From an uncultured Alphaproteobacteria bacterium (GTDB taxonomy: Bacteria > Pseudomonadota > Alphaproteobacteria > HIMB59 > GCA-002718135): 36,565 bases of DNA. Made by a program: the position numbers and the translations under genes. The DNA lies in NCBI GenBank assembly GCA_902541435.1, contig CACBQR010000010.1, forward strand, positions 1 to 36,565. The letters run 5' to 3'. The notes beneath the pieces were generated by a model. The model had not been told where the DNA came from, made no database searches, and saw only the letters and a program-made list of their open reading frames with translations. Shown piece by piece: positions 16,288-18,064 of this stretch (positions within the stretch are counted from its first letter, which is position 1; every line of letters starts with the position of its first letter).

Positions 16288-17001
16288 TTATTTTTTCTCT
16301 AATTGTCTAAAAAAAATTGTTGAGAATTCATCCATAAATGTTTCCAAGGATATAAAATATTTTGATAAGTCGTTTGAAATTTTATTGTACGCAACTACAG
16401 CAGGTATAGCTACAAAAAGACCTAATGCAGTTGCAAAAAGAGCCTCAGCAATTCCTGGTGCAACAACTGCTAAATTTGTATTTTGAGCTATTGCAATAGA
16501 TTTAAAACTATTCATTATACCCCAGACTGTTCCAAATAACCCAATAAAAGGTGCGGTTGATCCAGCAGTTGCGAGGAATGTTAAATTTCTTTCAACATTT
16601 TCACTTTCTTTATTAAAAACAACTGTCATTGATCTCATCATTCTATCTTTTAGAGAATTAATGTCAGATGTATCATTTTCAAACTGAGTTTTACTTTTTT
16701 TCCACTCTAAAATTGCAGCACAAAATAATTTTGATTTTGGATCTGTCTGATTAAAATTTAAGGTTTCATATAAATCTTCAAATGAATTTCCAGACCAAAA
16801 AATATCTTCAAATTCTTTTTCAAGTTTTTTTAATTGTCTAATTCTTAAAATTTTTGAAATAATTACATTCCAGGAATAAAGAGAAGCTAAGATTAAAATT
16901 ATAATTACAGATTTGACAACAAGGTCAGCTTGCATAAATAGAGCAAGCATTGAAAAATCTGGAGCTTCTGTTGATAAATTTGTACTATTAATATCTGCCA
17001 T
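16288..17001 (-). CDS. tolQ: Proton-motive-force channel protein TolQ (ExbB/MotA family)
   Basis: The 237-aa inner-membrane protein has three hydrophobic segments: about residues 28-48 (LVVKSVIIILILASLYSW), 143-165 in the conserved LATAGSTAPFIGLFGTVWGIMNSF block, and a third with GIAEALFATALGLFVAIPAVVAYN. These are hallmarks of TolQ/ExbB; position next to TolR/A/B identifies TolQ. In many alphaproteobacteria tolQ is preceded by the thioesterase gene ybgC and by ruvCAB. Here a small nuclease gene lies 5 bases upstream instead. Confidence 0.96.
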   Translation of the reverse strand: MADINSTNLSTEAPDFSMLALFMQADLVVKSVIIILILASLYSWNVIISKILRIRQLKKLEKEFEDIFWSGNSFEDLYETLNFNQTDPKSKLFCAAILEWKKSKTQFENDTSDINSLKDRMMRSMTVVFNKESENVERNLTFLATAGSTAPFIGLFGTVWGIMNSFKSIAIAQNTNLAVVAPGIAEALFATALGLFVAIPAVVAYNKISNDLSKYFISLETFMDEFSTIFFRQLEKK

Positions 17002-17006
17002 AATAA

Positions 17007-17300
17007 TTATTTTTTAATTTTTTCAAGATCACTACTATGAACCATAACCCAAAACCCCGGTCTATTTTTTTCACATAATGCTATTACTGGTGTCTTTCCC
17101 TCTTCTTTGGCAAGTTTTGCAGTATCATCCCATAAACTAATTGCTGTATGCTTAGCTCTTAATTTACATTCTATAAATAAGTCTTCATGAATTACATCAG
17201 CTCTTGTTACTTTACCATTACCCCCGCTCAAAGGTGTCCTTTTCCCATTAAAATAGTTTGCAACATCTCTTTCTCTTTTTTTCCAGGCTTTATCAGGCAT
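17007..17300 (-). CDS. Small PD-(D/E)XK nuclease, Hjc-like candidate resolvase
   Basis: The 97-aa protein carries a compact PD-(D/E)XK core: Glu10 in KKRERDVANYF, a basic Ser-Gly-Gly loop KRTPLSGGNGK (20-30), Asp35 in TRADVIHED, and Glu44-Cys45-Lys46 in FIECK. A conserved-looking C-terminal half follows (TAISLWDDTAKLAKEEGKTPVIAL, then RPGFWVMVHSSDLEKI). The order E...SGG...D...ExK matches the active site described for archaeal Holliday-junction resolvase Hjc, though this protein is shorter. Similar small nucleases also occur in marine phages, so function is inferred. It sits between yebC and tolQ, where many alphaproteobacteria have ruvC-ruvA-ruvB-ybgC. It has its own Shine-Dalgarno (GAAAGGAA) 14 bases after yebC. 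Hand-counted G+C is about 34%, not clearly foreign. Confidence 0.75.
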   Translation of the reverse strand: MPDKAWKKRERDVANYFNGKRTPLSGGNGKVTRADVIHEDLFIECKLRAKHTAISLWDDTAKLAKEEGKTPVIALCEKNRPGFWVMVHSSDLEKIKK

Positions 17301-17314
17301 CTATATTCCTTTCA

Positions 17315-18064
17315 TTAGGCTGTCAGTGAAGATAGAACATTATCATCAATTTCAAAATTTGATGATACAACTTGAACGTCGTCATTGTCTTCTAAAACTT
17401 CAAGTAATTTAAATAGTTTGTCTGCTGTATCTTTTCCAATATTTATATTATTTTTACTTTTCCAAATTAAATTTGCAGAATTAGTCTTACCATACTGTTT
17501 AATTAATTTATCATTAAGTTCATGCAAATCGTTTTGATCACAGTATATTGAATATTCTGTTTCATTAATTTCATAATCTTCACTATTATTTTCAATAAGA
17601 AATTCTAAAAGTTGATCTTCTTTTACTAAGTTTTTATCGAGAGTGATATTTCCAAATCTGTCAAAACCAAAACTAACGCTTCCTGTTTCACCTAAATTAC
17701 CTCCATGTTTACTAAAAGATGATCTAATCTCCGCAGCTGTTCTATTTTTATTATTTGTAAGTGCCTCAACTATTATTGCAATGCCTTCAGGACCATACCC
17801 CTCATATCTTACTTCTTCATAATTGCTATCAGGATCATTTCCTTGACCTTTTTTTATTGCTCTCTCAATATTATCTTTTGGCATATTGAGTGACTTGGCT
17901 GACGATATTGCAGATCTTAATCTAATATTACTCTCAATATCTTCACCTCCTACTTTGACAGCAACAGAAATTTCTCTTCCAAGTCTTGAGAAAACTTTTG
18001 CTCTTTTTTTATCTTGAGCACCTTTACGATGCATAATATTTTTAAATTTCGAGTGCCCTGCCAT
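17315..18064 (-). CDS. yebC: YebC/PmpR-family protein (TACO1-like)
   Basis: YebC-family proteins are DNA-binding regulators in some bacteria, and recent work links the family to ribosomal translation of difficult sequences. The 249-aa protein begins with the invariant MAGHSKFKNIMHRKGAQDKKRAK and contains NMPKDNIERAIKKG and YEGYGPEGIAIIVEALTNNKNRTAAEIRSSFSKHGGNLGETGSVSF, all family signatures. Length is standard. The gene normally precedes ruvC in alpha- and gammaproteobacteria; here it precedes the small nuclease. It leads the tolQ-containing run after a 79-base gap. Confidence 0.96.
   Translation of the reverse strand: MAGHSKFKNIMHRKGAQDKKRAKVFSRLGREISVAVKVGGEDIESNIRLRSAISSAKSLNMPKDNIERAIKKGQGNDPDSNYEEVRYEGYGPEGIAIIVEALTNNKNRTAAEIRSSFSKHGGNLGETGSVSFGFDRFGNITLDKNLVKEDQLLEFLIENNSEDYEINETEYSIYCDQNDLHELNDKLIKQYGKTNSANLIWKSKNNINIGKDTADKLFKLLEVLEDNDDVQVVSSNFEIDDNVLSSLTA

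Follow-up and report, generated by a model that had tools for sequence, protein, structure and literature searches.

Can a single gene encoding 97 amino acids take the place of the whole RuvABC complex in a free-living bacterium? The question is raised by a locus in a stretch of 36,565 nucleotides (here called the window) that is contig 10 of an uncultured alphaproteobacterial assembly (1.21 Mb, 65 contigs, 75% complete) in the order HIMB59 (AEGEAN-169), where a small nuclease gene stands between yebC and tolQ. We think it likely (at a probability of about 0.8) that a domesticated, motor-free, Hjc-like phage resolvase has replaced RuvABC here, with the activity of the enzyme inferred. RuvAB is regarded as near-universal in bacteria, being absent in under 2% of them, mostly small-genome parasites (PMC3403352), and a free-living ocean order without RuvAB would show that bacteria can dispense with coupling a resolvase to a motor. 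The locus would also be an example of a core housekeeping step passing to a virus-type gene, whose cell and phage versions are up to 83% identical and directly comparable. As a system of one gene and 97 aa, it lends itself to asking which features make a resolvase safe for its cell.

The nuclease gene and its conservation in the order

The gene, a predicted stand-alone Holliday-junction resolvase, is an open reading frame on the minus strand (17007–17300) with an ATG start, located 14 bp after yebC (17315–18064, minus strand; Pfam PF01709 and PF20772) and 5 bp before tolQ (16288–17001, minus strand; Pfam PF01618 and synteny). Pfam confirms YebC, TolQ, TolR and YmdB around it, and with gaps of only 14 and 5 bp the slot is too small for ruvC, ruvA, ruvB or ybgC. 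Six residues (E10, S25, G26, D35, E44 and K46) are invariant in all 67 sequences compared. Specifically, these are a predicted catalytic glutamate in helix 1 (E10, codon 17271–17273; role inferred from Hjc), a conserved loop preceding the catalytic aspartate (S25-G26, 17223–17228), a predicted metal ligand aligned with D33 of Hjc (D35, 17196–17198) and the E-x-K motif aligned with Hjc E46-x-K48 (E44-C45-K46, 17163–17171), all encoded on the minus strand. Slot and motif are shown by these data, and the earlier note, which had proposed an open reading frame between yebC and tolQ carrying E10, S25-G26-G27, D35 and E44-C45-K46, held on both counts: the coordinates were confirmed, and every residue is where it was said to be.

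The gene is a core component of the order. Among 61 order genomes (the window's own and 60 relatives, ten of them at least 90% complete), which we assign by inference to two families, f1 and f2, a full-length, single-copy nuclease occurs in 52, including all ten of those at least 90% complete. This count leaves out genome G060, which has only a weak match inside a 788-aa frame. Eight of the nine genomes lacking a full-length copy also lack a yebC match, and the locus was probably not assembled in them; the ninth is G060, whose contig ends inside tolR. The order yebC–nuclease–tolQ–tolR is found in 46 of 46 loci that span the region, the window included (47 loci were read, with G060 not reaching the region and six further nuclease-positive genomes left out). 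An identical protein is encoded in several named genome records, among them AG-891-K05 (L105), which serves as reference for genomospecies GCA002718135-1.A of order HIMB59 (PMC10734472).

The protein is also conserved beyond its neighbours, at 68–75% identity between the two families of the order vs 46–51% for tolQ and 53–58% for yebC. The nuclease at locus L024 is 99% identical (about one residue in 97 differs), yet of the 29 four-fold sites that can be compared just 31% agree, with yebC at 82% and tolQ at 87% identity; such conservation of the protein over diverged four-fold sites points to strong purifying selection rather than recent transfer and, together with the full-length copies in 52 of 61 genomes, marks the frame as a conserved gene and not a chance one. 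An exception comes from outside these loci: the nuclease frame of AG-457-I08 (L163, 2118–3020, plus strand) continues in frame into PyrE-like sequence (orotate phosphoribosyltransferase, judged by eye) for a total of 301 aa, with yebC still upstream and tolQ not found in that locus.

Absence of RuvABC in the order, and the ruvC slot in the class

RuvABC has been lost from the order. The RuvC model (PF02075) matches none of the 61 order genomes, and the curated cut-offs of the full ruvB model and of RuvA are likewise reached in 0 of 61; what remains are sub-threshold AAA+ matches to the ruvB model in all 61, and weak sub-cut-off RuvA matches in 14, all in frames longer than 900 aa. One genome among the ten most complete, G037, is a single contig of 1,410,127 bases and 99% complete, and no ruvA, ruvB or ruvC was detected in it (RuvA and RuvB judged by cut-off).

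A referee might object that RuvABC is present but was missed, because assemblies are incomplete or the genes diverged, and that the nuclease is merely an addition. In favour of this reading, the window's own genome is only 75% complete, and the Pfam model RuvB_N scores above its 27-bit cut-off at two places there. However, those places lie in frames of 423 and 580 aa, and we set RuvB_N aside as unspecific, as it also fires in 14 of 14 controls, archaea included. Against the objection stands, too, the absence at cut-off of all three proteins from 61 of 61 genomes, with ten at least 90% complete and one a single contig among them. Insensitivity of the model is unlikely to explain the gap in RuvC, because the same model finds 353 of 385 genomes in a sample of the wider class. 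The objection can thus be set aside almost entirely, and we return to loss and replacement.

The class sample (n = 385 genomes), searched for the nuclease with a 17-row profile (A4), shows complementary occurrence of the nuclease and RuvC. The nuclease occurs in nine genomes, of which two belong to the window's genus, three to f2 and four to a family outside the order, f25. Both f25 loci that were read have yebC–nuclease–tolQ, with nucleases 65 and 68% identical. RuvC, by comparison, is found in none of the nine genomes with the nuclease vs 353 of the 376 without it (Fisher p 6e-11, uncorrected for kinship). The nine represent three families in two order-level groups, so that few independent events are being counted. 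RuvB over cut-off is absent from the four f25 genomes and from G220, of the window's genus. PHROG_2002, tried as an alternative genome-search profile, proved too insensitive (4 of 385) and missed f2 copies that A4 found.

The slot is that of ruvC. Six RuvC-bearing genomes were chosen from among those with the best RuvC matches, and in them the match to RuvC begins 14, 16, 22, 23, 30 and 559 bp beyond that to yebC; of the two loci read (L266 and L276), both have ruvA after ruvC and L276 also has ruvB (ruvA and ruvB recognised by eye). YebC has previously been linked to RuvC through gene neighbourhood (PMC3403352). The earlier note had started from a yebC–ruvC–ruvA–ruvB order and read the nuclease as a replacement for those genes. 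The yebC–ruvC order held in all six picked genomes, with ruvA in two of two and ruvB in one; the replacement is supported by absence in 61 of 61 genomes and by the complementary occurrence in the class sample; and an intact ruvCAB elsewhere in the genome, which would have told against replacement, was looked for and not found. The RuvABC resolvasome and the nuclease therefore share a chromosomal slot after yebC and presumably a task; they differ in that RuvABC has motor genes whereas the nuclease slot has none. RuvC has an RNase H fold (PMC3864405).

Partial precedents exist. RecU stands in for RuvC in Firmicutes, where RuvAB is kept (PMC1193525), whereas RuvAB is gone too from the nuclease-bearing order. 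RecU is a PD-(D/E)XK nuclease, as the window's is predicted to be. Among 117 species surveyed, two that have RecA lack RuvAB, namely Aquifex and Wigglesworthia, which have RecG (PMC1193525) and so resemble the present case; those are two genomes among 117 species, however, whereas here a whole order has a dedicated nuclease in the ruv slot. Three papers on HIMB59 (PMC3815206, PMC10308909, PMC10734472), searched by term in their main text, returned no ruv genes or Holliday junctions, and the term ‘resolvase’ is absent from the main text of the latter two. In the open-access literature searched, judged by titles and the starts of abstracts (subscription papers and preprints were not covered), we found no report of RuvABC loss in HIMB59 or of a phage resolvase in the ruv slot. 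The kind of enzyme is known; its use by cells as a core replacement for the entire complex, and repeated replacement at one locus, appear to be new.

An Hjc-like profile and predicted fold, with phage relatives

Which family does the nuclease belong to? Among phage protein families its sole match (up to E 10) is phrog_2002, ‘Holliday junction resolvase’ (E 2.5e-10, residues 3–94 on profile positions 16–112 of 130), and the same profile matches one relative each from f2, f25 and a phage; an f25 relative is also matched weakly by PHROG_244, ‘RusA-like’ (E 1.3e-4). Curated models are silent: an NCBIfam scan of the window's nuclease gave no match, and hence no Hjc, RecU or RusA model, while a Pfam scan gave nothing above cut-off, with no match to Hjc, RecU, RusA or RuvC (PF02075). 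The sole Pfam line, Fip1, lies far under its cut-off and was rejected. PDB sequences, searched by phmmer and by profile, gave no credible match.

Aligned profile to profile (hhalign), the nuclease family and four Hjc/Hje chains match over 78 columns with a score of 33.9 and 24% identity, compared with a mean of 11.6 (sd 2.0, maximum 20.4) for 100 column-shuffled Hjc alignments. The register places D35 on D33, and E44-x-K46 on E46-x-K48, of 1gef; E10 falls outside the local alignment. An AlphaFold model built from a deeper alignment (48 rows, mostly close relatives) reaches pLDDT 83 and pTM 0.77, with residues 25–29 under 50, and consists of a helix (2–16, with E10), a strand (41–47, with E44 and K46) and then helix, strand, strand and helix. 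It supersedes a weak first model (pLDDT 68), whose best fold rows were likewise Hjc. In Foldseek the top 12 rows are all Hjc chains, but they are marginal (best E 4.5e-3, none at or below 0.001, TM up to 0.56), and in VIA the best match is 1gef (Z 7.3, under 8; 86 residues, 3.6 A). Further proteins of the PD-(D/E)XK type come next, with Z 5 to 6.5, and fold alone therefore leaves function unsettled.

The Hjc-like profile is shown by these comparisons and an Hjc-like fold is predicted with marginal scores; the earlier assignment to an Hjc-like PD-(D/E)XK nuclease is supported by PHROG_2002, by the shuffle-controlled alignment and, at that marginal level, by the fold search. As no curated Hjc model matches, we describe the protein as ‘Hjc-like’ without classing it as Hjc. 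With archaeal Hjc/Hje (1gef, 2wcw, 1ob8) it has in common the order of active-site residues, and these chains are its best profile matches and, with marginal scores, its best fold matches; it differs in length (97 aa vs 123–147 aa for the PDB chains), in sequence (13–22% identity in VIA and no single-sequence PDB match) and in being bacterial and phage rather than archaeal. Archaeal Hjc/Hje are stand-alone enzymes that work without RuvAB.

Kinship with phages is shown too, marine phage genes being among the closest relatives of the nuclease. A scan of viral contigs returned 99 stretches encoding relatives of the nuclease, of which the best 80, at 66–83% identity, were kept. In 78 of these 80, a same-strand match to terminase large subunit begins –3 to 693 bp downstream, and the two remaining contigs end within 15 bases (the terminase and head-tail adaptor are named from the phrog_2 and phrog_332 matches of L094 and L095). 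Contamination by host DNA was ruled out, with yebC, tolQ or ymdB in 0 of 80. Among annotated phage records only two match (45–47% identity), one of them from Bacteroides, and a viral scan using a Bacteroides-phage copy returned one relative. In Bacteroides phage BS162P1 (L098, 5323–6315, plus strand), the nuclease domain is C-terminal in a 330-aa frame, with an N-terminal NUMOD4 + HNH endonuclease.

Phylogenetically, two phages join the window's genus (support 100/95), with other phages around them, and f2 and f25 fall elsewhere in the tree. A single clade for the two families of the order is not rejected (AU p 0.197), nor is one with f25 added (0.118), and with few columns and many open forks the number of gene moves is undecided. 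We interpret the fork that joins the window's genus and phages as exchange between cells and phages, the direction and number of events not being settled; transfer from phage to cell is an inference only. One column alone separates cells from phages by the criterion used: Pro81 (codon 17058–17060) is present in 33 of 33 cellular rows vs 3 of 32 phage rows, and might be a mark of domestication.

The earlier note had cautioned that similar small nucleases occur in marine phages and may have other jobs there. That caution held: the enzyme is of phage type, and its phage kin lie beside terminase. In a rival explanation, a phage-derived gene was kept for another use, such as packaging by gene transfer agents or interfering with phages, and stands after yebC only by coincidence. 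The terminase in 78 of 80 viral contigs points to a packaging-linked role in phages and speaks for this reading. Against it, the cellular copy stands among the housekeeping genes yebC, tolQ, tolR, tolB and ymdB, and is single copy and full length in every genome with an assembled locus, under strong purifying selection (the cell genomes were not screened for capsid or terminase). Defence genes are usually patchy, which also counts against it. We consider this explanation very unlikely. PHROG_2002 phage kin adjoin terminase, whereas the window's nuclease is a single-copy cellular core gene in the position of ruvC.

A proposed motor-free resolvase, and other RuvC-less lineages

As we picture it, the gene encodes a small, metal-dependent endonuclease of the PD-(D/E)XK class and Hjc type that has been exchanged with marine phages, and it would have displaced ruvCAB between yebC and tolQ in ancestors of these bacteria. 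A homodimer would bind four-way (perhaps also other branched) DNA and nick two opposing strands, the paired nicks being made at metal sites formed by E10, D35, E44 and K46, as inferred from Hjc. Recombination intermediates and reversed forks would thereby be separated without the RuvAB motor, and RecG would probably supply branch migration where it is needed. Dimerisation, junction cleavage and the partnership with RecG are inferred only; with no activity data, the resolvase function that the earlier note proposed remains an inference as well. Of 27 genomes examined for RecG, 25 have it at full length (20 of the 22 that bear the nuclease), with 15 of these 25 matches below the curated cut-off; G028 has only a partial match and G040 has none. 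That a phage enzyme can do the job without RuvAB is shown by RuvC of phage bIL67, which restores UV resistance to an Escherichia coli ruvABC mutant (PMC3864405). Viral resolvases also attack other branches, for example forks, and are a danger to cells (PMC3864405); it follows from such promiscuity that a domesticated enzyme should be more selective than its phage kin.

It is possible that another resolvase shares the work, the genome searches not having covered RusA, RecU, YqgF/RuvX or RecA. A stronger form of this objection makes the nuclease a general repair endonuclease for flaps and branched DNA, with Holliday junctions handled mainly by YqgF/RuvX, by RusA or by RecG-driven reversal without cutting. 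It can draw on the frequent promiscuity of phage resolvases (PMC3864405), on RecG in most genomes tested, on YqgF, RusA and RecU having been outside the genome searches, and on six other RuvC-less genomes (below) with no slot nuclease by eye, so that other solutions exist. However, the nuclease occupies the exact ruvC slot in two order-level groups, RuvC is absent from nine of nine nuclease-bearing genomes of the class, and the closest folds are those of dedicated junction resolvases. We regard this alternative as unlikely and retain a stand-alone junction resolvase as the preferred reading.

Twenty-three class genomes have neither RuvC nor the nuclease, and yebC was found in 16 of them, 5 of 5 in one search and 11 of 18 in another (12 of the 32 RuvC-less class genomes were identified by elimination). 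Among these 16, six have no nuclease recognisable by eye after yebC (one each of f135, f149, f104 and f47, and two of f108; loci L289, L286, L285, L265, L280 and L290), from which it follows that loss of RuvC needs no replacement in the slot. Two more have contigs that stop at yebC or shortly beyond it, and both of these genomes carry RuvB. RuvB was under cut-off in the RuvC-less genomes G157, G108, G233, G193 and G257, which were tested for it.

The remaining eight of the 16 carry, as the next frame after yebC, a different resolvase-like nuclease, of one of two kinds. First, three f50 genomes have a nuclease of about 168 aa directly after yebC (L269, 978–1481, minus strand; L274, 1748–2248, plus strand; and locus L281), the next gene looking like tilS and not tolQ. 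The two that were scanned match PF24608 PDDEXK_15 (E 2–3e-21) and phrog_244, ‘RusA-like’ (1e-13), that of G404 being assigned by eye only, and RuvB is below cut-off in the two f50 genomes checked. Second, four f99 genomes and one f119 genome encode a phage-type RuvC-like protein (L277, 1001–1528, minus strand; also L287, L288, L291 and L284), its gene standing between yebC, which it directly follows, and ybgC or tolQ. The proteins of G157, G355, G266 and G177 match phrog_1770 at E 9e-22 to 4e-37, and that of G432 was recognised by eye only.

On balance we lean, without much margin, towards reading the yebC–tolQ interval as a recurrent replacement port for single-gene phage-type resolvases in small-genome alphaproteobacteria, in which RuvABC was discarded several times and resolvases were drawn from nuclease families unrelated to one another: an Hjc-like family (the HIMB59 order and f25), PDDEXK_15 (f50) and phage-type RuvC-like proteins (f99 and f119). 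If this is true, Holliday-junction processing in these bacteria is motor-free or RecG-driven, and viral in origin. The f99 genomes are single contigs of 1.2–1.3 Mb, 99–100% complete, with a GC content of 0.29–0.30 over the loci.
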